64,000 nucleotides of DNA from an uncultured Caproiciproducens sp. (GTDB lineage Bacteria; Bacillota; Clostridia; Oscillospirales; Acutalibacteraceae). The stretch is from contig NZ_OY761810.1 of assembly GCF_963664915.1 (NCBI RefSeq), forward strand, positions 1,068,661-1,132,660, read 5' to 3'. The notes beneath the pieces were generated by a model. The model was not told the DNA's origin, did not search any database, and saw nothing but the letters and a program-made list of their open reading frames with translations. Positions 52,669-63,973 of this stretch are shown one piece after another. Position 1 is the stretch's first letter. Each line of letters starts with the position of its first letter. Position numbers and translations under genes: made by a program.

Positions 52669-52719
52669 TTGACACGAAGGCCGGTTTTTGGTATAATTCA
52701 ATTGTTTTGAACTTCAAAA
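52669..52719 (+). promoter_or_regulatory. Perfect promoter and FabT-type operator of the fatty-acid operon
   Basis: Exact consensus TTGACA (52669-52674), 17-base spacer, exact TATAAT (52692-52697). Overlapping the expected start site is the palindrome TTTTGAA-C-TTCAAAA (52705-52719). A promoter this strong needs repression; the MarR protein encoded directly after it is the obvious binder. Confidence 0.88.
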
Positions 52720-52744: not shown

Positions 52745-53197
52745 TTGAATAATGAATATTCTCAGATCAATGATTTTCTCGTCAAGGTGTTTAATGAAGT
52801 ATTAAGGACTGAGGAAACAAGTCTGAAAACCAAGGAGTCCCACAATCTGTCCATGCGTGAAATGCATGTTATCGAAGCGGTATGCGACGGTACACAGGCG
52901 GGGAAAAACACGGCTTCCGATATTGCCCTTTCACAGCGGATTACGGCCGGCACGCTGACGACCACCATTAACACGCTGGAGAAAAAAGGCTTTGTCGCAA
53001 GGCATCAGGATCAGCGTGACAAAAGGGTTGTACGGATTTTTCCGACGGATAAGGGAGAAAGCGTGAATGAAGTTCATTCCTCATTTCACCACAAGATGGT
53101 TTCCGCCATCATGTCCGCAATGAATGAGGACGAACTGGCCATGTTTGTAAAAGGGTTGGCTGCGGTGAAGAATTTTTTAGAAAGCAACAAAGAATAG
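52745..53197 (+). CDS. fabT: MarR-family fatty-acid repressor (FabT-like)
   Basis: A 150-residue winged-helix protein that opens the fatty-acid operon, as FabT does in streptococci, where acyl-ACP acts as corepressor. The DNA-binding part is SDIALSQRITAGTLTTTINTLEKKGFV near 57-84, followed by the wing with QRDKRVVRIFPT. TTG 52745 is the start, after AAAGGAG. It should bind the palindrome at the promoter and so control itself and all downstream genes. The gene is 12 bp from the DegV gene. Confidence 0.88.
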   Translation: MNNEYSQINDFLVKVFNEVLRTEETSLKTKESHNLSMREMHVIEAVCDGTQAGKNTASDIALSQRITAGTLTTTINTLEKKGFVARHQDQRDKRVVRIFPTDKGESVNEVHSSFHHKMVSAIMSAMNEDELAMFVKGLAAVKNFLESNKE

Positions 53198-53209: not shown

Positions 53210-54058
53210 ATGGCTATTAAAATTATAACGGACAGCACATCGGATATTCCTTTTGACAGTCAGGCCGAAATGGGAATTGAAATTGTTCCCCTCAGCGTCC
53301 ATTTCGGTGAAAAAGAATATATTGACGGGGTCAGTCTTACAAAACCGCAGTTTTTTAAAATGCTCCGTGAATGTGAGGAACTGCCCACCACTGCACAGGT
53401 GAACCCTGAAAGGTTTGAAAAAATCTTTAAAAAATATGTTGATAACGGGGACGAGGTCATCGGTATATTTATTTCGAGCAAGCTGAGCGGCACATACCAG
53501 TCAGCGGGCATTGCGAAAAATATGCTTGAAGCCAAGAATATACAGCTGATTGATTCGCTGTCCGTCAGCTTCGGGCTGGCGCTGCAGGTGCACGAGGCGA
53601 TTAAAATGCGCGACGCCGGGTGTTCAGCCGCAGAAATTTGCAGCGTGATTGAAGAACTAAAAACGCGGCAGAAGTTTTTCGCCATTATTGACACAATGAA
53701 ATTTTTAAAAATGGGCGGCAGACTGTCCGCTTCTTCCGCATTTTTCGGTTCCATGCTCCATATCAAGCCGATTGTTGCCATTGAAGACGGCGCGATCGTC
53801 GCTTTTGACAAAAAGAAGGGACTTAAGGCAGCCGCTCTGCGCATTGCGGAAAAAATGAAGGAAGACAAACCCGACCCGCAGCGTGAAATCGTTTTTGGGG
53901 ATACCGACACGCCCGAAGTGGCAAATATGCTGAAAGAGGCAGCCTCCGAAGCAGCGGACGTCACCAACAGCGAGACGGTTGAAATCGGGACTGTCGTCGG
54001 TACACACGGCGGTCCGGGATGCGTGGGCGTGTCTTATATCGCTCAGTCGAACGGCTGA
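53210..54058 (+). CDS. DegV/FakB-like fatty-acid-binding protein (second copy)
   Basis: A 282-residue DegV protein with the N-terminal KIITDSTSDIPFD, ligand motif ISSKLSGTYQSAG near 92, DSLSVSFG near 117, KTRQKFFAIIDTMKFLKMGGRLS near 155 and a C-terminal GTHGGPGCVGV. FakB proteins present fatty acids to FakA for phosphorylation. Its place inside a fatty-acid synthesis operon, between the repressor and fabH, supports a fatty-acid ligand. It ends 20 bp before fabH. No fakA is seen. Confidence 0.9.
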   Translation: MAIKIITDSTSDIPFDSQAEMGIEIVPLSVHFGEKEYIDGVSLTKPQFFKMLRECEELPTTAQVNPERFEKIFKKYVDNGDEVIGIFISSKLSGTYQSAGIAKNMLEAKNIQLIDSLSVSFGLALQVHEAIKMRDAGCSAAEICSVIEELKTRQKFFAIIDTMKFLKMGGRLSASSAFFGSMLHIKPIVAIEDGAIVAFDKKKGLKAAALRIAEKMKEDKPDPQREIVFGDTDTPEVANMLKEAASEAADVTNSETVEIGTVVGTHGGPGCVGVSYIAQSNG

Positions 54059-54078: not shown

Positions 54079-55083
54079 ATGAGTTTTAATATAATCGGTA
54101 CCGGAAGCGCGTTCCCGGCATGTTCCAAGACAAACGAAGAACTGTCGCTTCTGATTGACACTTCGGATGAATGGATTTCCACACGAACAGGGATTAAAAG
54201 CAGGCATATTTCCACGACCGAGACCCTGACCGATTTTGCAGCCGAGGCGGCAAGGCGCGCGCTGGACGACGCTTCCACAGCGGCCGGGGAACTGGATTTA
54301 ATTATCTGCTCTACCGCGCGCGGGGACCATATTACGCCGTCGCTTGCATGCGAGATTCAGGAAAGGCTTGGCGCAACCTGCCCGGCATTCGATTTGAACG
54401 CCGCCTGCACCGGTTTTGTTTATGCGCTGGATGTCGCGTTTTCCTATTTTTCGGCGCACAGGGCAAAAAAAATACTGATCGTTGCGGCGGAAGCCATGTC
54501 AAAGCTACTGGACTGGCAGGACCGTTCCACCTGTGTACTTTTTGGCGACGGTGCAGGCGCCGCGGTATTGGCACCGGGCGACAGCCTGTTATCGATTAAA
54601 ATAGGCGCTAAAGGTGAAGTTGATCCGCTGTATATTGAAAACACACAGGGCAACTGCCCGTATTCCCAAATAAAACCCGCTCATCAATATTTAAAAATGA
54701 ACGGGAAAGATGTTTATAAATTTGCGGTTTCCTCCATGTGCGGCGATTTAGCCGATGTCATCCGCGAAGCCGGATTAACGCAGGACGATATTGACTATGT
54801 ACTGCCCCATCAGGCAAACCTGCGGATTATAGAAGCGGCGAAAAGCAAACTCTCCATTGCGCCGGAAAAATACCGGTTCAATATCGACCGCTTTGGAAAC
54901 ACCTCCTCCGCGAGTATCCCCGTTCTGCTCGATGAAATGAATCGTGCCGGGGAACTTCAAACGGGCAATATCCTGGCGCTGACCGCTTTTGGCGGCGGTA
55001 TGACCACCGGCGCCTGTATCATCAGATGGAGCGGGAATGCAAATCCGGATAACAGAAAAAATAAAGGCGGGGATTCTATATGA
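54079..55083 (+). CDS. fabH: 3-oxoacyl-ACP synthase III
   Basis: Initiates fatty-acid chains by joining acetyl-CoA (or a branched primer) with malonyl-ACP. The 334 residues hold the Cys-His-Asn triad: Cys in DLNAACTGFVYAL near 115, His in LPHQANLRII near 250 and Asn in FGNTSSAS near 280. ATG 54079 is chosen since GGAGG precedes it by five bases; 20 further upstream codons overlap the DegV stop. Its stop overlaps the fabK start by four bases. Confidence 0.95.
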   Translation: MSFNIIGTGSAFPACSKTNEELSLLIDTSDEWISTRTGIKSRHISTTETLTDFAAEAARRALDDASTAAGELDLIICSTARGDHITPSLACEIQERLGATCPAFDLNAACTGFVYALDVAFSYFSAHRAKKILIVAAEAMSKLLDWQDRSTCVLFGDGAGAAVLAPGDSLLSIKIGAKGEVDPLYIENTQGNCPYSQIKPAHQYLKMNGKDVYKFAVSSMCGDLADVIREAGLTQDDIDYVLPHQANLRIIEAAKSKLSIAPEKYRFNIDRFGNTSSASIPVLLDEMNRAGELQTGNILALTAFGGGMTTGACIIRWSGNANPDNRKNKGGDSI

Positions 55084-56027
55084 TAAAAACACCACTGTGT
55101 GAACTGCTTGGAATTGAATATCCCATTATTCAGGGAGGTATGGCGTGGATTGCGGATGCTTCTCTTGCGGCCGCTGTTTCAAACGGCGGCGGGCTGGGTC
55201 TGATTTCGGCGATGAACGCGAACGCGGAGTGGCTGAAAAGCGAAATCCGCAAGGCAAAAACCCTGACGGATAAACCGTTTGGGGTCAATATTATGCTGAT
55301 GAGCCCTTACGCCGAGGAGGTTGCCCGGCTTGTGATTGACGAGGGCGTTCCCGTCGTCACGACCGGCGCGGGGAACCCGTCGCAGTATATGGGCGCATGG
55401 ATGGAAGCGGGCGTCAAGGTGATTCCCGTGGTGCCGTCAACCGGCATGGCAAAGCGGGTCACCCGTGGCGGCGCAGTCGCCGTTATTGCCGAAGGCTGCG
55501 AGTCGGGCGGACATATCGGCGAGCTGACCACTATGACCTTGCTTCCGCAGGTGTGCGACGCGGTGGATATCCCTGTGATTGCGGCGGGCGGCATTGCAAA
55601 CGGCAGGGGAATTGCGGCGGCCTTTCTGCTCGGCGCGGTCGGCGTGCAGGTCGGCACCCGGTTTTTGGTGGCGAACGAATGCGGCGTGCATCAAAATTAT
55701 AAGGATAAAATCCTTCATGCAAAGGATATTGACACCCTGACGACCGGCAAACGGACAGGGCATCCGGTCAGGGCGCTGAAAACCAGCTTTACCAGAGAGT
55801 TTGCGAAAAAAGAATATGACGCTTCGGTTACCAATGAGGAACTGAATGCGTTCGGCGCGGGCGCGCTTCGTCTTGCCGCTGTGGAAGGCGACGTGAAAAA
55901 CGGATGCTTTATGGCGGGCCAGATTGCTGCAATTGTAAATAAGGAGCAGCCCGCGGCGGAAATTATCCGCGAAATGTTCGGTGAAGCGGAAACTGTTTTG
56001 GGCGGTGCGGGCAGATGGGTAAAATAG
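55080..56027 (+). CDS. fabK: FMN-dependent enoyl-ACP reductase II
   Basis: Reduces trans-2-enoyl-ACP in the last elongation step, replacing FabI. The 315-residue NMO-fold protein has IQGGMAWIADASLAAAVSNGGG near 17-38, the catalytic His in EGCESGGHIGELT near 142, the FMN-phosphate motif AAGGIANGRG near 175 and GTRFLVANE. It overlaps fabH by four bases and fabD by 13. No acpP is between fabH and fabK, where streptococci have it. Confidence 0.95.
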   Translation: MIKTPLCELLGIEYPIIQGGMAWIADASLAAAVSNGGGLGLISAMNANAEWLKSEIRKAKTLTDKPFGVNIMLMSPYAEEVARLVIDEGVPVVTTGAGNPSQYMGAWMEAGVKVIPVVPSTGMAKRVTRGGAVAVIAEGCESGGHIGELTTMTLLPQVCDAVDIPVIAAGGIANGRGIAAAFLLGAVGVQVGTRFLVANECGVHQNYKDKILHAKDIDTLTTGKRTGHPVRALKTSFTREFAKKEYDASVTNEELNAFGAGALRLAAVEGDVKNGCFMAGQIAAIVNKEQPAAEIIREMFGEAETVLGGAGRWVK

Positions 56028-56938
56028 CGTTTGTATTTTCGGGACAGGGGACGCAGTACAGCGGCATGGGCAAAGATCTTTGCGAAAACAGTCCCGCCGC
56101 GAAAGGGGTGTTTGACTGTGCCGACAACATCCGCACCGGAACCTCCGCGCAGTGCTTCGGCGGTTCGCAGGAGGAGCTTTCCCAGACCATCAACACGCAG
56201 CCCTGTGTTTTCTGTGTGGATTTGGCGGCGGCGCAGTACCTGAAGGCCGAAAGGATTCTTCCGAGCGCGGTCGCCGGTTTTTCGCTGGGCGAAGTCGCCG
56301 CGCTGACTTTTGCCGGTGCGTTCGACATGGACACGGGATTTCAGTTTGTCTGTAAACGGGCGGCTTTTATGCAGGACGCGGCTGAAAAACATCAAAGCGG
56401 CATGGCGGCGGTGCTCAAGCTGCCGGTGGAAGCGGTGCAGGAGCTTTGTGGACGGCATGAAAATACGTATCCGGTCAATTATAACTGCAAAGGGCAGACC
56501 GTCGTCGCGCTTCCCAAAAGTGCGCTCGGCGATTTTTGCAAAGAAGTGCAGGCAGCGGGCGGCAGAGCCGTTCCACTGGCGGTCAGCGGCGGATTTCACT
56601 CCCCGTTCATGGACGGGGCGGCGCAAAAGCTTCTGGCAGAATTGGAAACGACAGACGTGCGTCGGCCCCTACTGCCGGTTTATTCCAATGTGAACGCAAT
56701 GCCCTACGGGGATGAAATGAAAGCGACCATATCAAAACAGGTAAATCATCCTGTTTACTGGCAGAAGTCGATTGAAAATATGATCGCGGACGGAATAGAT
56801 ACCTTTGTTGAAGTTGGCCCGGGGAAAACCCTGTGCGGCCTCATTAAAAAAATTTCTCCGCTGGTGCGTGTGCTGAATGTTGAAAACAGCGCGGACGCAC
56901 AGGCGGTGCTACAGGAATTAAGGAGGACTCCATGCTGA
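56015..56938 (+). CDS. fabD: Malonyl-CoA:ACP transacylase
   Basis: Loads malonyl groups on ACP. The 307 residues carry FSGQGTQYSGMGKDL at 7-21, the nucleophile elbow AGFSLGEVAAL near 88 (GFSLG for the common GHSLG) and the catalytic His in SGGFHSPFM near 192. Both ends overlap neighbours, 13 bases with fabK and seven with fabG, so the operon is translated as one unit. Confidence 0.95.
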   Translation: MGKIAFVFSGQGTQYSGMGKDLCENSPAAKGVFDCADNIRTGTSAQCFGGSQEELSQTINTQPCVFCVDLAAAQYLKAERILPSAVAGFSLGEVAALTFAGAFDMDTGFQFVCKRAAFMQDAAEKHQSGMAAVLKLPVEAVQELCGRHENTYPVNYNCKGQTVVALPKSALGDFCKEVQAAGGRAVPLAVSGGFHSPFMDGAAQKLLAELETTDVRRPLLPVYSNVNAMPYGDEMKATISKQVNHPVYWQKSIENMIADGIDTFVEVGPGKTLCGLIKKISPLVRVLNVENSADAQAVLQELRRTPC

Positions 56939-57672
56939 AAGGAAAAACAGCCGTCGTGACCGGCGGCTCCAGAGGAATCGGCAAAGCCATCGCGCTGAAA
57001 ATGGCTGAAAACGGTGCAGACGTTGCAATTGTCTACGCCGGAAACGAAGCCGCGGCACAGGAAACCTGCGGTTTGATTGAGCAGTGCGGCGTAAAAGGCA
57101 AAGCTTACCGGTGCGATGTTTCCGACGATGCACAGACAAAAGAGCTGATCGATGCGATACTCAATGATTTCGGCGGAATCGATATTCTGGTGAATAACGC
57201 CGGCATTACACGGGACGGCTTGATTCTCTCCATGAAAGAAGAGGATTTCGACACCGTACTGGATACGAACCTGAAAGGCGCTTTCCACATGATTAAGCAT
57301 TCCTACCGCAATTTTATGAAAAAAAGAAGCGGCAGGATTATCAATATCAGCTCCATTTCCGGCATCACGGGAAATATTGGTCAGGCCAACTATTCCGCCG
57401 CGAAAGCGGGGTTAATCGGCCTTACAAAGTCCACGGCAAAAGAGCTTGCGGGGAGGAATGTGACCTGCAACGCAATCGCGCCGGGTTTTATCGACACCGA
57501 TATGACCGCCGCTCTGCCGGAAAAGGTGAAAGAGTCGGTTGTCGCCGCAATTCCGCTGAAACGGAGGGGCTCCCCCGCCGATATTGCGAGTCTGGCGGTC
57601 TTTCTGGCCGGGGACGAAGCGGGTTATATCACCGGTGAGGTGATTAAAATTGACGGCGGCCTTTGCATGTAA
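56932..57672 (+). CDS. fabG: 3-oxoacyl-ACP reductase
   Basis: NADPH-dependent short-chain dehydrogenase reducing 3-oxoacyl-ACP. In 246 residues the nucleotide motif TGGSRGIGKAIA (11-22), NNAG near 88 and the Ser-Tyr-Lys catalytic set (SSISG near 139, YSAAK near 152) are all intact. It overlaps fabD and is followed after 40 bp by the FabX-like gene. Confidence 0.97.
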   Translation: MLKGKTAVVTGGSRGIGKAIALKMAENGADVAIVYAGNEAAAQETCGLIEQCGVKGKAYRCDVSDDAQTKELIDAILNDFGGIDILVNNAGITRDGLILSMKEEDFDTVLDTNLKGAFHMIKHSYRNFMKKRSGRIINISSISGITGNIGQANYSAAKAGLIGLTKSTAKELAGRNVTCNAIAPGFIDTDMTAALPEKVKESVVAAIPLKRRGSPADIASLAVFLAGDEAGYITGEVIKIDGGLCM

Positions 57673-57712: not shown

Positions 57713-58843
57713 ATGGCTTATTTTAATCAAGAACCACTGATAATCGGCGACCTAGTAGTAGAGACCCCCGTTGTACAGGGCGGAATGGGCGTTGGCATTT
57801 CCCTCTCCGGCCTTGCTTCCGCCGTCGCGAACGAGGGCGGAATGGGCGTGCTTTCCGCCGCGGTAGTCGGTATGATGTATCAAACCGGCCCGGGCGCGAG
57901 GGACAATACTGCAGCCCTCCGGGAGGAAATCCGCCGTGCGCGCGCAAAGACCAAAGGCGTGCTTGGCGTCAACGTGATGGTCGCGCTGAGCGACTTCGGC
58001 GAAATGGTGAAAGCCTCCGTCGAAGAGGGTATCGATGTTATTTTCGCCGGTGCGGGTCTGCCGCTCAATCTGCCTTCCTATGTAAAAAAAGGCTGTAAAA
58101 CAAAACTGGTGCCAATTATTTCTTCCGCCCGCGCGGTCAGGACGATTTCAAGATGGTGGCAGGAAAAATACAATTATATCCCGGACGCTTTTGTGGTCGA
58201 GGGGCCCATGGCCGGCGGGCATCTGGGCTTCCATACGGATCAGATCGAAGACCCCGCGTATCAGCTGGAAAAACTTGTGCCGCAGGTTCTTGAAGCGGTT
58301 CGTCCGATACAGGAAGAAGCGGGGCGCAAAATTCCCGTGATTGCGGCGGGCGGAATATTCAGCGGTGCGGACATCAAGCGGTTTTTCAAGCTTGGCGCTT
58401 CCGCGGTGCAGATGGCGACCCGGTTTGTCGCAACGGATGAGTGCGACGCGGACATCGCGTTTAAGAACGCCTATGTAAACTGCAAAAAAGAGGATATCGG
58501 CATTATTCAAAGCCCTGTGGGGATGCCCGGGCGCGCCATTGTGAACGGCTTTTTGCAGGAGTCGGCAAAGGGTAACAAACATCCGGCCGGTTGCCCGTTT
58601 CACTGTATTATTACCTGCAAACAGAAAGAAAGCCCCTACTGCATCTCCATGGCGCTGATTAACGCCTGTAAAGGAAAATTGGAAAACGGGTTTGCGTTTA
58701 TTGGGGCAAACGGATATAAAGTAAAGGAAATCGTTTCGGTCAAGCAGCTGTTCGAGACTCTTTCAAAGGAGTACCGGCAGTGTGATGATTCGGCGGCTGC
58801 GCCTCAGAGCGATGAAAACACTGTGAGAGAGGATTTGTTATGA
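57713..58843 (+). CDS. NMO-fold flavoprotein with C-terminal Cys cluster (FabX-like)
   Basis: A 376-residue FMN-dependent protein of the nitronate monooxygenase/FabK superfamily, longer than and distinct from fabK in the same operon. It has VVQGGMGVGISLSGLASAVA near 20, an active-site-type His in EGPMAGGHLGF near 165 and AAGGIFSGADIKRFF. The C-terminal Cys set C-x3-C-x3-C-x7-C (CPFHC IITC KQKESPYC) near 305-320 resembles the [4Fe-4S] ligands of Helicobacter pylori FabX, which forms the double bond in unsaturated fatty acids. ATG 57713 follows GAGG. It overlaps fabF by four bases. FabX-like function is inference; ordinary enoyl reductase is the alternative. Confidence 0.82.
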   Translation: MAYFNQEPLIIGDLVVETPVVQGGMGVGISLSGLASAVANEGGMGVLSAAVVGMMYQTGPGARDNTAALREEIRRARAKTKGVLGVNVMVALSDFGEMVKASVEEGIDVIFAGAGLPLNLPSYVKKGCKTKLVPIISSARAVRTISRWWQEKYNYIPDAFVVEGPMAGGHLGFHTDQIEDPAYQLEKLVPQVLEAVRPIQEEAGRKIPVIAAGGIFSGADIKRFFKLGASAVQMATRFVATDECDADIAFKNAYVNCKKEDIGIIQSPVGMPGRAIVNGFLQESAKGNKHPAGCPFHCIITCKQKESPYCISMALINACKGKLENGFAFIGANGYKVKEIVSVKQLFETLSKEYRQCDDSAAAPQSDENTVREDLL

Positions 58844-60075
58844 AAAGAGTAGTTATTACCGGATTAGGCGTCATTTCTCCCGTTGGAAATACCGTTGAGG
58901 CATTCTGGGACGCTTTAATCAATGGACGGTGCGGCATTGACTTTATAACCAAATTTGATACCACCGATTTTAAAGTAAAAATAGCGGCGGAGGTCAAAGG
59001 GTTTGACCCGCACGACTATATGGAAAAAGGGGAGATCAGAAAAACAGACCTTTTTGCACAGTACGCGATTGCAGCCGCCGCGCAGGCGATAGAGGACAGC
59101 GCAATACTGGGTACCGTGGAGCCGGAGCGGCTCGGCGTATACGTCGGCTCCGGAATCGGCGGGATGAATACGTTTATCAATGAATGCGACAAATATTTGA
59201 AGGGCGGGCCGAGAAAAGTTTCGCCTCTGTTTGTTCCCATGATGATTGCCAATATGGCCGCGGGAAATATCGCCATCAAATACAACGCACAGGGGCCGAG
59301 TCTTCCGGTTGTCACGGCGTGTGCCACTTCTACCAACGCGGTAGGCGAGGCGTTCCGCTCCATCCGGTACGGATACGCGGACGCAATTATCGTCGGCGGG
59401 GCGGAAGCAACCGTCAATCCGCTTGCCATTGCCGGGTTTACCAACTGCATGGCGCTCTCCACGAAAAATATCCCCGAGGAATCCTCCCTTCCGTTCGACA
59501 AGCGCCGTGACGGCTTTGTCATGGGCGAAGGCGCGGGAATTTTAATTTTAGAGGAATATGGGCACGCAAAAGCGCGCGGCGCGAAGATTTATGCGGAAAT
59601 CAGCGGCTACGGCAACACCTGCGACGCGCACCACATTACGGCGCCGCATCCGGAAGCCGTCGGCGGCGCAAGGGCAATTTCCCTTGCGGTGGAAGAAGCA
59701 GAGCTGCAGGATGAAACGGAGCTCTATATCAACGCGCACGGCACCGGTACGCCGCTGAACGATAAATCCGAAACGCTTGCGATTAAAAAAGCATTGGGCG
59801 ACAAAGCCTATCAGGTAAGCATCAGCTCCACCAAGTCCATGACCGGCCACATGCTCGGCGCGGCGGGCGCGATTGAGGCAATTGCCTCCGTGCTTACCCT
59901 CGAGCGCGGAATGATCCCACCGACCATCGGCTACCTTGAAAAAGACGAGAACTGTGACCTTGACTATGTTCCGAATACCGCAAGGAAAAAGAAAGTCAAC
60001 GCAGCGCTGTCCGTTTCCCTCGGCTTCGGCGGTCACAACGCCTGCATTGCCCTGCGCAAATACCGCGGCGAATAA
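58840..60075 (+). CDS. fabF: 3-oxoacyl-ACP synthase II
   Basis: Elongation condensing enzyme. The 411 residues contain the catalytic Cys in VTACATSTNAVGEA near 165, first His in NAHGTGTPLND near 303 and second His in SMTGHMLGAAG near 339. It overlaps the FabX-like gene (ATGA) and is followed 29 bp later by accB. Only this elongating synthase is seen, so it must also extend unsaturated intermediates if they are made. Confidence 0.96.
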   Translation: MKRVVITGLGVISPVGNTVEAFWDALINGRCGIDFITKFDTTDFKVKIAAEVKGFDPHDYMEKGEIRKTDLFAQYAIAAAAQAIEDSAILGTVEPERLGVYVGSGIGGMNTFINECDKYLKGGPRKVSPLFVPMMIANMAAGNIAIKYNAQGPSLPVVTACATSTNAVGEAFRSIRYGYADAIIVGGAEATVNPLAIAGFTNCMALSTKNIPEESSLPFDKRRDGFVMGEGAGILILEEYGHAKARGAKIYAEISGYGNTCDAHHITAPHPEAVGGARAISLAVEEAELQDETELYINAHGTGTPLNDKSETLAIKKALGDKAYQVSISSTKSMTGHMLGAAGAIEAIASVLTLERGMIPPTIGYLEKDENCDLDYVPNTARKKKVNAALSVSLGFGGHNACIALRKYRGE

Positions 60076-60104: not shown

Positions 60105-60533
60105 TTGGATATTCAGCAGATTAAAGATATTGCGGAGACCATGCGCGAAAACGGACTGACTCTGGTTGAAATAACAGAGGACGGTGCTTCCATTCATCTG
60201 GAGCGGAACAGTACACTCGGTGAAGCGCCTCCCCTTCAAACGGCTGCACAGCCGCCGGTGCCGGCGGAGAGAGTGTCTCCTTGTGCGCCGGTGTGCAGTG
60301 GAATTGAAATAAAATCACCCATTGTTGGGGTGTTTTATGCTTCGGCTTCACCGGAGGGCGAGCCGTTTGTCAAGGTTGGGAGTTATGTAAAAAAGGGCGA
60401 CACACTCTGCATTATTGAAGCGATGAAGCTGCTCAACGAAATCAGTGCGGAGTGCGACGGAGAAATCACCGAAATCTGCGCAGCCAGCGGCCAGGTTGTC
60501 GAATATGCGCAGGTATTGTTCAGAATAAAGTAG
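60105..60533 (+). CDS. accB: Biotin carboxyl carrier protein of acetyl-CoA carboxylase
   Basis: Carries biotin between carboxylase and transferase. The 142 residues have an N-terminal helix region, a Pro/Ala-rich linker (about 45-75) and the biotinyl domain with the modified Lys in IIEAMKLLNEI near 106. The start is TTG 60105; AAAGGA lies upstream. The TTG start may lower its synthesis relative to neighbours. Confidence 0.96.
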   Translation: MDIQQIKDIAETMRENGLTLVEITEDGASIHLERNSTLGEAPPLQTAAQPPVPAERVSPCAPVCSGIEIKSPIVGVFYASASPEGEPFVKVGSYVKKGDTLCIIEAMKLLNEISAECDGEITEICAASGQVVEYAQVLFRIK

Positions 60534-60545
60534 GGGGTTGTGACG

Positions 60546-60962
60546 ATGAACAAAGAAGAAATAATGAAAATGATTCCCCACAGGGAACCCATGCTGCTGA
60601 TCGACCATGTGGAAAAGACAGGGAATGCGACAGCAACGGGAACCTATACCGTAAAGGGAGACGAGTGGTTCTTAAAGGGGCATTTCCCCGGCAATCCCGT
60701 TGTTCCCGGGGTCATCCTGTGCGAAATAATGGCGCAGGCCTGCTGCATCCTGATCGGGGAAAAAATAAATGGCCGCACGCCATATTATACTGGGCTGGAC
60801 AAGGTGCGGTTCAAACATACGGTCCTGCCGGGTGATACGCTTACAGTCGCGTGCAGCCTTACAAAAGAAAAGGGTTCTTTCTGCTTTGCAAGCGCCAAAG
60901 GATATGTCGAACAGCAGCTGGCGGTCACCGGTGAACTTTCATTTGCACTGGTCGACGGTTGA
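60546..60962 (+). CDS. fabZ: 3-hydroxyacyl-ACP dehydratase
   Basis: Hot-dog-fold dehydratase making trans-2-enoyl-ACP. The 138 residues carry PHREPMLLIDHV with the catalytic His near 14-16 and GHFPGNPVVPGVILCEIMAQ with the Glu near 62. ATG 60546 has GGGGG eight bases before it; the GTG six bases upstream is less likely. It lies 12 bp after accB. FabZ alone does not isomerise to the cis-3 intermediate in most species. Confidence 0.96.
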   Translation: MNKEEIMKMIPHREPMLLIDHVEKTGNATATGTYTVKGDEWFLKGHFPGNPVVPGVILCEIMAQACCILIGEKINGRTPYYTGLDKVRFKHTVLPGDTLTVACSLTKEKGSFCFASAKGYVEQQLAVTGELSFALVDG

Positions 60963-60983: not shown

Positions 60984-62318
60984 TTGTTTTCTAAAATATT
61001 GATTGCCAACCGCGGCGAAATCGCTGTCCGCATTATCCGTGCCTGCAAGGAAATGGGTATTTTGAGCGTAGCGGTTTTTTCCGAGGCCGACAGGGATTCC
61101 CTGCACGTTAGCCTTGCGGATGAAAGCATCTGCATTGGCCCGGCGCAGGCAAAGGACAGCTATCTGAACATGAGCGCCGTCCTTTCGGCCGCCATCGTGA
61201 CGGGGGCGCAGGCGATTCATCCCGGTTACGGCCTGCTTTCTGAAAATGCGGACTTTGCGTCACTCTGTGAAAAATGCGGCATCACTTTTATCGGCCCGAC
61301 TGCCGACCTCATCCGCAAAATGGGCGACAAGGACGCGGCACGGAAAACCATGCGCGCAGCCGGTGTGCCCGTTGTGCCGGGCTGCGACATCATTGAGGAC
61401 CCCGCGCTGATCCGCGGCGAAGCCGACAAAATCGGATATCCCCTTTTGGTTAAAGCCCGGGCGGGCGGCGGCGGCAGGGGCATCCGCACGGTGAACAGTG
61501 CCGATGAATTGAAAAATGCGTTTGCCGCCGCTTCAACGGAAGCACAGAACGCTTTTGGTGACGGCACGGTCTATATGGAAAAATATCTTTTTCCGGTAAA
61601 ACATATTGAAATGCAGATTTTGTGCGACAATTACGGGAATATTGTGTGCCTTGGCGAGCGGGAATGTTCCGTTCAGCGCAAAAGGCAGAAACTGCTGGAG
61701 GAAAGCCCCTCCCCTTCCGTTAATGAGGAAACACGAAAAAAAATGATGTCGGCGGCGGTAAAAGCGGCACAGGCCGTGCGGTACGTGAACGCGGGCACCA
61801 TTGAATTTTTAATGGATAAAACCGGGAGCTTTTATTTTATGGAAATGAACACAAGGCTTCAGGTGGAACATCCCGTGACGGAGATGGTGACCGGAATCGA
61901 CCTTGTAAAGTGGCAGATCCGCATTGCGTCGGGCGTACCGCTTTCTTATAAGCAGGATGATATTCAAATTGAAGGAACCGCAATGGAGTGCCGCATCAAT
62001 GCGGAAAGCCCGCGCGACGGGTTTCGTCCCAGCTGCGGAAAAATTTCATTTTTGCACATTCCGGGCGGGCCATGGGTGCGCTTTGATACGGCTCTTTATC
62101 AGGACTATACCGTTCCGCCGTTTTACGACTCTATGATCGGCAAGCTGATTGTACACGCCAAGACGCGCGAAGAAGCGATCCGCAAAATGCAGGCGGCCCT
62201 GTGCGAGCTGGTCATTGAGGGTGTGGAGCACAACGCGGAGCAGCAGATGGATATTCTGAGCGACAGCGAATTTATTGCAGGGGATTATTATACTGATTTG
62301 ATTGAGAAACGGGGGTAA
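60984..62318 (+). CDS. accC: Biotin carboxylase subunit of acetyl-CoA carboxylase
   Basis: ATP-grasp enzyme carboxylating biotin. The 444 residues carry FSKILIANRGEIAVRII at the N-terminus, the glycine-rich ATP loop KARAGGGGRGIR near 155 and the biotin carboxylase signature EMNTRLQVEHPVTEM near 285. TTG 60984 is the start, after GGAAAGGAAG. It lies 21 bp after fabZ. Confidence 0.97.
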   Translation: MFSKILIANRGEIAVRIIRACKEMGILSVAVFSEADRDSLHVSLADESICIGPAQAKDSYLNMSAVLSAAIVTGAQAIHPGYGLLSENADFASLCEKCGITFIGPTADLIRKMGDKDAARKTMRAAGVPVVPGCDIIEDPALIRGEADKIGYPLLVKARAGGGGRGIRTVNSADELKNAFAAASTEAQNAFGDGTVYMEKYLFPVKHIEMQILCDNYGNIVCLGERECSVQRKRQKLLEESPSPSVNEETRKKMMSAAVKAAQAVRYVNAGTIEFLMDKTGSFYFMEMNTRLQVEHPVTEMVTGIDLVKWQIRIASGVPLSYKQDDIQIEGTAMECRINAESPRDGFRPSCGKISFLHIPGGPWVRFDTALYQDYTVPPFYDSMIGKLIVHAKTREEAIRKMQAALCELVIEGVEHNAEQQMDILSDSEFIAGDYYTDLIEKRG

Positions 62319-62324
62319 CGCGTG

Positions 62325-63191
62325 ATGCTGACAAAAGATCTTTTCAGAAGGCCCAAAAATGAACTTGAAAATTACAGCAGGCATTTTAAAGCGGTGACGC
62401 CCGATGTTCCGAGTGAAATGTGCGTTTTATGCCCCTCCTGCAAAGAAACGCTTTTTACAGGCGTATTGAATGAAAACAGCAATGTCTGCCCGAAATGCGG
62501 GTACCATTTCAGGATGAACGCGCGGCAGCGCATCAGTATGATCGTTGACGAGAATACCTTTCAGGAGCTTTATGGCGGTATCTTATCAAAGAATCCGATT
62601 GAATTTCCGAATTATCCGGAAAAAATCAAGCATGCGCGGCTTGAAAGCGCGGAAAAGGAAGCGGTCGTCTGCGGAACCGCCAAAATCGGAGGAAATGACT
62701 GCGCGCTTTTCGTAATGGAACCGCGGTTTATGATGGGCAGTATGGGCACGGTGGTCGGTGAGAAAATTACGCGTATTTTCGAATATGCGTTGGCTCATTC
62801 CCTGCCTGTCGTGGGATATACCGTATCCGGCGGAGCCAGAATGCAGGAGGGCATCCTGTCATTGATGCAGATGGCGAAAACAAGCGGGGCGGTGAAGCTG
62901 CACAGCGATGCACACAATCTGTACATTGCCGTACTGACCGACCCGACAACCGGCGGCGTGACCGCCAGCTTCGCCATGGAAGCCGATATCATCCTTGCGG
63001 AGCCTAATGCGTTGATCGGCTTTGCCGGGCCGCGCGTCATTGAACAGACCATCCGGCAAAAACTGCCCGCGGGTTTTCAGCGCGCGGAATTTCTGCTTGA
63101 AAAAGGGTTTGTGGACGCGATTGTGGAACGCAAGAGTCAACGCAAGCAGATCGCCGGGCTTCTTTCCATGCATACAGGGAGGGAAATCTGA
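62325..63191 (+). CDS. accD: Carboxyltransferase beta subunit of acetyl-CoA carboxylase
   Basis: With AccA it transfers carboxyl from biotin to acetyl-CoA. The 288 residues have an N-terminal zinc ribbon with four Cys (CPSC...CPKCGYHF near 32-57) and the crotonase-fold domain with SGGARMQEGILSLMQM near 165 and PTTGGVTASFA near 205. ATG 62325 follows GGGGG. Its stop shares one base with the accA start. Confidence 0.96.
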   Translation: MLTKDLFRRPKNELENYSRHFKAVTPDVPSEMCVLCPSCKETLFTGVLNENSNVCPKCGYHFRMNARQRISMIVDENTFQELYGGILSKNPIEFPNYPEKIKHARLESAEKEAVVCGTAKIGGNDCALFVMEPRFMMGSMGTVVGEKITRIFEYALAHSLPVVGYTVSGGARMQEGILSLMQMAKTSGAVKLHSDAHNLYIAVLTDPTTGGVTASFAMEADIILAEPNALIGFAGPRVIEQTIRQKLPAGFQRAEFLLEKGFVDAIVERKSQRKQIAGLLSMHTGREI

Positions 63192-63973
63192 TGAATGCTT
63201 ATGACAAAGTAACCGCAGCGCGTGCAAAGGGCAGACCGACCGGGATGGATTTTATTGCAAATATTTTTGATGATTTTATTGAGCTTCACGGTGACAGGCG
63301 CTTCGGCGACGACAAGGCGGTCATTGCGGGAATTGCCCGACTCAACACGATGTCGGTTACCGTTATCGCCCTGGAAAGGGGCCATGATACAAAAGAAAAA
63401 GTTTTTCGGAATTTCGGTTCCGCTCATCCGGAGGGATACCGCAAAGCGCTGCGCCAGATGAAGCTGGCGGAAAAATTCGGCAGGCCCGTGGTATGCTTTG
63501 TGGACACCTCCGGCGCTTTCTGCGGAATTGCCGCGGAAGAACGCGGGCAGGGGCAGGCCATCGCCGAAAATTTAATGGAGATGATGACGCTCCGGGTTCC
63601 GGTTATCTCTGTTCTGATCGGCGAGGGCGGAAGCGGCGGAGCGCTCGCGCTCGCCGTGGCGGATGAAGTATGGATGCTTGAAAACTCCATCTACTCCGTG
63701 ATTTCTCCGGAAGGGTGCGCAAGCATCCTGTGGAAGGATGCTTCGAGGGTAAAAGAAGCTTCCGAGTGTTTGAAGCTTACAGCGGAAGATCTTTTGGAGC
63801 TTAAAGTCATTGAGAAAATCATCAGTGAAAACGGCAGAAACTTTCATAAAACCTATCTGGAGCTAAAACAAAATCTTTGGGAAACATTTGAAAAAAGCAA
63901 CAGTCTTGATCCGGGTGAGCTGGTTGAGAAAAGATACGCCCGGTTCCGAAAAATTGGCTCGGAATATAAATAA
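63191..63973 (+). CDS. accA: Carboxyltransferase alpha subunit of acetyl-CoA carboxylase
   Basis: Second half of the carboxyltransferase, 260 residues. The crotonase-fold core has GDRRFGDDKAVIAGIA near 35, VCFVDTSGAFCGIAAEERGQ near 98 and IGEGGSGGALALAVADEVWM near 138. E. coli AccA is about 319 residues; the shorter N-terminus is usual in Firmicutes. Last gene of the operon in the window; the 27 bases after its stop show no terminator. Confidence 0.96.
   Translation: MNAYDKVTAARAKGRPTGMDFIANIFDDFIELHGDRRFGDDKAVIAGIARLNTMSVTVIALERGHDTKEKVFRNFGSAHPEGYRKALRQMKLAEKFGRPVVCFVDTSGAFCGIAAEERGQGQAIAENLMEMMTLRVPVISVLIGEGGSGGALALAVADEVWMLENSIYSVISPEGCASILWKDASRVKEASECLKLTAEDLLELKVIEKIISENGRNFHKTYLELKQNLWETFEKSNSLDPGELVEKRYARFRKIGSEYK

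Follow-up and report, generated by a model that had tools for sequence, protein, structure and literature searches.

A FabX/UfaA-type gene in a clostridial fatty acid operon, a candidate for the double-bond-forming step of unsaturated fatty acid synthesis

Which enzyme places the double bond into the unsaturated fatty acids (UFAs) of Clostridia is an old question, and a gene in the DNA presented here raises it again. The gene, of fabX type, lies in a fatty acid synthesis operon within a stretch of 64,000 nucleotides from an uncultured Caproiciproducens sp. (the window, by which the whole stretch is meant). An earlier note, based on the sequence of the window, had described the product as resembling FabX of Helicobacter pylori, had stated that UFA synthesis in Clostridia lacked a clear enzyme and had proposed an undescribed system. 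The lack of an enzyme was true as of 2009, when, according to Zhu et al., no dedicated double-bond enzyme had been identified in Clostridia (PMC2700279). The proposal of an undescribed system does not hold, as the protein is a relative of FabX and UfaA and of a known kind. We put at about 0.85 the probability that the gene is a clostridial fabX of the UfaA type, encoding a flavin mononucleotide (FMN)/[4Fe-4S] acyl-acyl carrier protein (acyl-ACP) dehydrogenase/isomerase whose product, cis-3-decenoyl-ACP, is extended to UFAs by the FabF encoded next to it. Sequence comparison and predicted structure support its kinship, its cofactor ligands, its placement in a fab operon and a shared operator; that the protein catalyses this reaction in its own organism is what we infer from them.

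Kinship, cofactor ligands and fatty acid context

The open reading frame (ORF) is uninterrupted and intact, and it carries the two motifs that had been read from it, C-x3-C-x3-C-x7-C (residues 294, 298, 302 and 310) and GGHLGF (residues 168–173). When the protein is compared with H. pylori FabX (PDB 7e1q, 7e1r, 7e1s and 9lt5), the fold agrees over the full length, the four cysteines align with the [4Fe-4S] ligands, and the counterparts of the catalytic residues His182 and Ser273 and of the FMN contacts N99, E175, Q240 and T243 are kept. The alignment proposed by the earlier note is therefore correct for the cysteines and the histidine, but not for the spacing of the fourth ligand, which is x3, x3, x11 in H. 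pylori and x3, x3, x7 in the window, the loop before this ligand being four residues shorter. The predicted cluster cysteines are invariant in all 28 rows of alignment A1. The histidine and the four cysteines, with unchanged spacing, are found in 80 of 80 named relatives, although the histidine was partly selected, as one of the two search patterns held GGH; these relatives are the best 80 of 536, picked for closeness to the window protein, and hence no guide to what is typical of the family. The four cysteines also align in all 36 full-length relatives compared from the class survey, the first spacing being x2 in some of them. Judged from these alignments, the Cys4/His motif of the window protein is beyond chance.

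The operon was said to hold two genes of the nitronate monooxygenase (NMO) fold, the first an ordinary fabK, and both statements were borne out. These two are the only PF03060 matches above 190 bits in the genome, nine others reaching at most 31.1 bits, and the first passes the NCBIfam FabK model (Table 1) while the second, with 126.5 bits against a cut-off of 453.1, fails it. The Pfam NMO match of the window protein is superfamily-wide, as FabK matches the same family. In a fold test its NMO triosephosphate isomerase (TIM) barrel was closest to FabX, and the nitronate monooxygenases in the PDB scored lower. A tree of the kind that the note had suggested places seven FabK rows on one side of a branch with support of 100, and 117 FabX rows, including that of H. 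pylori, together with seven rows of a short variant on the other; it was built by a quick method, and H. pylori FabX sits on a long branch. Sequence, predicted fold, the positions of cysteines and histidine and the tree all uphold a FabX-type identity. Several relatives are annotated as nitronate monooxygenase, a label that our comparison suggests is misleading for FabX genes.

The order fabG>fabX>fabF of the window recurs in six named relatives (the 'Amazonia massiliensis' assembly, Caproicibacter fermentans, Ruminococcaceae bacterium D5, Yanshouia hominis and two metagenome-assembled genomes (MAGs)) and in loci L284 and L285. Other arrangements are fabK>fabX>fabD (L048, L053, L289, L293, L295 and L298), fabX>fabT (L049, L068, L078 and L287), fabX>acpP>fabK (L286) and, in a planctomycete MAG, fabH>fabX>fabD (L120). 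At least two fab genes surround fabX in eight of the 80 named loci but not in the remainder, where many stretches are short or hold fabX alone. Within 1.5 kb of fabX, fab genes are present in 10 of the 20 FabX genomes of the window's order, the window included, and fabT together with fabH in 25 of the 30 best-scoring loci of the family of Clostridium acetobutylicum (f44, which we take to be the Clostridiaceae). Two long frames of 640 and 960 residues (L285 and L290), considered as FabX fusions that might point to a redox partner, are not claimed as such, since L285 reads through the fabG stretch and the FabX frame of L290 has just 365 residues.

A palindromic box, TTTGAN3TCAAA, counted as upstream when it lay at most 200 bases ahead of fabX or at most 40 inside the called ORF, precedes fabX in 12 of 44 class-survey loci and in none of seven short-variant loci, with one other site in the 522,892 bases of those loci; in 10 of these 12 the stretch shows no fab gene. 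Of the 30 best-scoring loci in the C. acetobutylicum family, 27 have the box ahead of fabX, for the most part between −39 and −44, and their 112,920 bases hold 10 further sites elsewhere; 5 of 18 loci of the window's order have it upstream as well. Acetoanaerobium noterae has two boxes upstream of fabX, and in seven of the class-survey genomes with the box ahead of fabX (G168, G068, G040, G145, G189, G063 and G116) it also stands ahead of the fab operon or its fabT. Among 40 fabZ loci, it precedes the fab operon or fabT in seven that are FabX-positive (L218–L224), and it occurs in four of the other 33 (L206, L207, L213 and L232). The box is neither general nor restricted to FabX carriers, which is the pattern that a FabT site should show. 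Because it is placed ahead of fabT, and because streptococcal FabT sites resemble it, the box is probably a FabT site. The fab clusters in several arrangements and the frequent FabT-type operator make the link between FabX and fatty acid synthesis a strong one.

Mode of action and rival explanations

FabM of streptococci, FabA of Escherichia coli and FabN of enterococci would fill the same step, from trans-2- to cis-3-decenoyl-ACP, with folds that differ from that of FabX. As had been reported, the operon holds no fabA, fabM or fabN. The earlier note had named a dedicated gene elsewhere in the genome as one of the findings that would speak against FabX; in the genome, which is a single contig and 98.9% complete, no FabA/FabZ-family gene besides the operon fabZ was found in a PF07977 search, no dedicated fabM was found, and no desaturase matched PF00487, acyl-ACP desaturases other than PF00487 not having been searched for. 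The single ECH_1 gene was considered as FabM and rejected, because its neighbours (thl, hbd, bcd and etf genes, named by eye) and its nearest PDB entry, 5z7r, a short-chain enoyl-CoA hydratase, lead us to take it for a crotonase of butyrate formation. The presence of this butyrate operon suggests that the organism is an anaerobic fermenter. In 40 fabZ loci (20 FabX-negative, 20 FabX-positive or with the short variant) nothing matched the crotonase at E 1e-4, which is a weak test for FabM, as in 21 of these loci fabZ was the only fab gene matched in the stretch and a remote FabM might go unseen. The FabN route would require a second FabZ, and the class sample almost never has one. Of its 196 genomes, 136 match PF07977 at all and just two do so twice, in one of these cases within an ORF of 1107 residues.

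H. pylori FabX oxidises decanoyl-ACP on its FMN and passes the electrons to the cluster and then to O2, while the trans-2 product is isomerised to cis-3 in a step that is itself independent of O2 (Zhou et al., PMC8626469). O2 is the only known electron acceptor of FabX (PMC8626469), and most bacteria with FabX homologues live anaerobically (Zhou et al.). The operon of the window has a fabK as well as fabX, whereas in H. pylori fabK is missing and O2 serves as the acceptor of FabX. For a strict fermenter without O2, we consider redox-neutral isomerisation the likeliest working mode, with about an even chance. FabZ of the same operon would supply trans-2-decenoyl-ACP, for which FabX would compete with FabK, the enzyme that reduces it; FabX would isomerise this substrate at C10 without net redox change, with His170 and the flavin handling protons and the cluster plugging and shaping the end of the tunnel and poising the flavin, and FabF would elongate the resulting cis-3-decenoyl-ACP to UFAs. 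Besides this source of substrate, the mode is suggested because an anaerobic butyrate former cannot rely on O2, because the enoyl/acyl couple, near 0 mV, lies so far above NAD+ and ferredoxin that it cannot reduce them, and because no carrier gene recurs near fabX. None was found among 824 neighbouring ORFs (at least 60 residues) of 119 fabX loci, the clusters being read by eye, and within 4 kb of fabX in 124 loci there was no ferredoxin-type ORF (C-x2-C-x2-C-x3-C, 40–150 residues), flavodoxins and distant partners lying beyond the reach of this search, and no convincing rubredoxin, three pattern matches being unlike rubredoxins.

Two homologues bear on this mode. The UfaA-type ORF of Neisseria gonorrhoeae, unannotated, read in L238 and presumably NGO1024, shares with the window protein the counterparts of N99, S149, E175, H182, S273 and the four cysteines, but is 35% identical to it, has another cysteine spacing and comes from a facultative host. 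UfaA is cited as indispensable for making UFAs anaerobically, by way of an acceptor described as unknown (PMC11300592), and its gene is listed as induced anaerobically (PMC3032703). By analogy, these residues, the induction and the essentiality would fit redox-neutral isomerisation. FabX of Fusobacterium (C4N14_08920; homologue in L239) is likewise an Fe-S relative with the NMO fold, from an anaerobe that has FabK as its sole enoyl-ACP reductase; in contrast, it is 37% identical to the window protein and 56% to H. pylori FabX and has the long cluster loop and Tyr277 of the latter. In PMC11091888 its gene is given in an operon with a hypothetical gene. The idea that the long loop and Tyr277 are peculiarities of H. 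pylori marking the use of oxygen was dropped, because the protein of this anaerobe has both.

The same enzyme could instead work by backtracking as in H. pylori, from decanoyl-ACP through trans-2- to cis-3-decenoyl-ACP, with the electrons leaving via the cluster to ferredoxin, flavodoxin, Etf or NAD+. The H. pylori enzyme does so with O2 (PMC8626469), the cluster cysteines are conserved, and the acceptor left unnamed for the gonococcal homologue would leave room for such a carrier; however, the lack of a recurring carrier gene and of nearby ferredoxin-type ORFs speaks against it, and with a couple near 0 mV a fermenter would have to drive the oxidation uphill, so that we consider backtracking unlikely, if well ahead of the remaining alternatives. 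A very improbable one is that the organism's single FabZ forms the double bond and FabX has another task. It is true that the genome has just one FabZ and that, as stated by Zhu et al., isomerase ability cannot be read from a FabZ sequence (PMC2700279), but the FabZ of C. acetobutylicum was there found to have no isomerase activity in vivo and in vitro, and the same genome has fabX.

No more probable is a second enoyl-ACP reductase, a FabK isozyme making saturated chains. FabK (for example 7l00, 5gvh and 2z6i) resembles the window protein in its TIM-barrel NMO fold, FMN, catalytic histidine and ACP substrates, and overexpressed Fusobacterium FabX raised the minimum inhibitory concentration of a FabK inhibitor from 0.4 to 3.1 µg/mL (PMC11091888), a weak rescue that is consistent with diversion of the intermediate as well as with a degree of reductase activity. 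Against this, FabK reduces a double bond rather than forming one and lacks the cluster cysteines, the Cys4 subdomain taking the place of its NAD(P)H-binding part (cf. Zhou et al.); the window protein also falls short of the FabK model and outside the FabK group of the tree, in an operon that already has a FabK. That the gene encodes a nitronate monooxygenase for detoxification, with fab neighbours by chance, is hardly credible: the Pfam NMO match and the annotation of relatives would favour it, but placement in fab clusters is repeated in differing arrangements and accompanied by FabT-type boxes, the nitronate monooxygenases in the PDB score lower, and O2 is not available to an obligate anaerobe.

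Several points nevertheless weigh against a FabX that makes cis-3-decenoyl-ACP in the window's organism. We found no activity, iron or fatty acid data for the protein or the organism, nor any fatty acid data on Caproicibacter in the open-access literature. H. pylori FabX is described as needing O2 as acceptor (Zhou et al.), and the arguments for the redox-neutral mode come from chemistry and from finding no partner gene nearby. Identity to H. pylori FabX is 42–43%, below the bar of >50% used by Zhou et al. for homologues, which is a survey threshold and not a functional criterion. The loop with the tunnel residues F74 and Y75 corresponds to gaps in the window protein and in all 80 named relatives, the phosphopantetheine contact Y277 is replaced by Met, and of the ACP contacts T130 is replaced by Leu and R160 by Trp; of the ACP-binding residues in helix 7, K152 is replaced by Arg and R164 by Lys, with the charge kept. 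The box is missing upstream of fabX in 32 of the 44 class-survey loci and in 13 of the 18 loci of the window's order. Finally, FabX is rare both in the window's order (20 of 295 genomes) and in the class sample, where 37 of the 196 Clostridia have it in full length (36 with E values of 1.2e-84 or lower, and G117).

The operon in the window

Table 1. Features of the fatty acid synthesis operon and of fabX in the window
Feature	Position	Strand	Remark
Consensus promoter TTGACA-17-TATAAT, TG before second hexamer	52669..52697	+	upstream of fabT and the operon
Perfect palindrome TTTTGAACTTCAAAA	52705..52719	+	immediately 3' of the promoter; probably a FabT-type operator
fabT-like MarR regulator	52745..53197	+	NCBIfam FabT model E 1e-38, 132 bits, under the cut-off of 200
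DegV/FakB-type protein gene	53210..54058	+	family match
fabH	54079..55083	+	start taken as the internal ATG at which the family match sets in; ORF as listed starts at 54019
fabK, ordinary enoyl-ACP reductase II	55080..56027	+	NCBIfam 459.4 bits, cut-off 453.1
fabD	56015..56938	+	family match
fabG	56932..57672	+	named by eye; matching genes in relatives
fabX-type gene, predicted FMN/[4Fe-4S] NMO-fold protein, 376 residues	57713..58843	+	subject of this study
Codon of His170	58220..58222	+	aligned with catalytic H182 of H. pylori FabX
Codons 294–310, C-x3-C-x3-C-x7-C, predicted [4Fe-4S] ligands	58592..58642	+	aligned with C300, C304, C308 and C320 of H. pylori FabX
fabF	58840..60075	+	start overlaps the fabX stop by 4 bases (58840–58843)
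accB, biotin-carrier domain	60105..60533	+	domain match
fabZ	60540..60962	+	sole PF07977 (FabA/FabZ) match of the genome
accC	60984..62318	+	named by eye; matching genes in relatives
accD	62322..63191	+	named by eye; matching genes in relatives
accA	63191..63973	+	named by eye; matching genes in relatives

The overlap of fabX with fabF, already seen in the earlier note, is present (Table 1), and the sole ACP gene found lies elsewhere in the genome, outside the operon. The palindrome TTTTGAACTTCAAAA is the best match of the window to the FabT-type operator pattern. Its core, TTTGAANTTCAAA, is found at three sites in the genome, the other two being inside an ftsW-like ORF and about 100 bases ahead of an rlmB-like gene (names by eye); given where these fall, we claim no FabT regulon beyond the operon. 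A DegV/FakB-type gene stands between fabT and fabH in the window and in the Amazonia massiliensis assembly (L085:4505-5347), and in L086 and L088 an ORF of 73–78 residues, ACP-like in L086, stands between fabH and fabK in place of the DegV/FakB-type gene. The position of the latter suggests that the use of exogenous fatty acids is coupled to type II fatty acid synthesis. In a genome of the window's own family (G165; L034/L075 and L234) the fab operon has no fabX, fabG being directly followed by fabF. Its FabX, encoded elsewhere in the genome, is 47–49% identical to that of the window, compared with 72% for its FabK, which suggests that the operon fabX of the window was gained or replaced.

FabX in Clostridia and in Clostridium acetobutylicum

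Thirty-four of the 37 genomes with full-length FabX are among the 136 with FabZ and three among the 60 without (Fisher p 6e-4); two further genomes of the sample hold FabX fragments and seven the short variant. Of the 136 genomes with FabZ, 102 lack full-length FabX. These 102 either make no UFAs or use another enzyme, and FabX as a general clostridial solution was rejected on the strength of the same sample. In the C. acetobutylicum family FabX is present at E 1e-45 or better in 183 of 206 genomes; the hydrogenase of one member (G168) has Iron hydrogenase 1 as its nearest PDB entry.

The short variant forms a clade of proteins of about 315–327 residues (L041–L047, for instance L044:6057-7010; families f25 and f26) with a shifted four-cysteine motif, C-x2-C-x3-C-x4-C in L044, and similar PDB scores for FabK (2e-48) and FabX (3e-43). 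It has no FabT-type box upstream and no match to other fab genes in the stretches examined, and by sequence it appears to be a third NMO type, to which we assign no role. Three genomes of the C. acetobutylicum family (G301, G336 and G339; L249–L251) have extra FabX copies, 58–62% identical to the window protein compared with 47–49% for their other FabX, without a FabT-type box; horizontal acquisition is possible. A contig labelled 'uncultured archaeon' (L163) carries a FabX-type gene with 55% identity to the window protein, which could be due to misbinning or transfer. On the pHG1 megaplasmid of Cupriavidus necator (L242) a FabX/UfaA-type gene adjoins two genes for peptidases of the U32 family, of which one bears an annotation for ubiquinone synthesis, which is compatible with a gene set for anaerobic growth. 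In three Bacteroidota loci (L133, L145 and L161) fabX is near a gene that, by eye, reads like FabI enoyl-ACP reductase.

Genome G349 encodes a protein 100% identical to the chain of 5z7r, which we take to be the crotonase of C. acetobutylicum. From fabH on, its fab order is also that printed by Zhu et al. (PMC2700279), and on such grounds we identify G349 as C. acetobutylicum. Its fab operon begins with fabX, behind a FabT-type box. Zhu et al. give the cluster from fabH onward and, in the main text, do not use the words nitronate or dioxygenase; they state there that the UFAs of C. acetobutylicum are made by 'a novel and unknown enzyme' (PMC2700279). fabX is the direct candidate for this enzyme, and FabX the obvious one for the family as a whole. 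No paper assigning FabX to Clostridium was found by title or start of abstract in the open-access literature, although subscription papers may well hold one. We propose more tentatively, at somewhat less than even odds, that FabX in obligate anaerobes is a redox-neutral flavin/Fe-S trans-2 to cis-3 enoyl-ACP isomerase and the double-bond enzyme of the Goldfine–Bloch pathway, that of C. acetobutylicum included, in which case the use of O2 in H. pylori would be a later or a side use. The mechanistic puzzle is sharpened by these findings, as no acceptor of FabX other than O2 is known and yet the hosts of its homologues are mostly anaerobic; and, with fabX at the head of the operon described by Zhu et al., the old question of clostridial unsaturated fat becomes directly testable.
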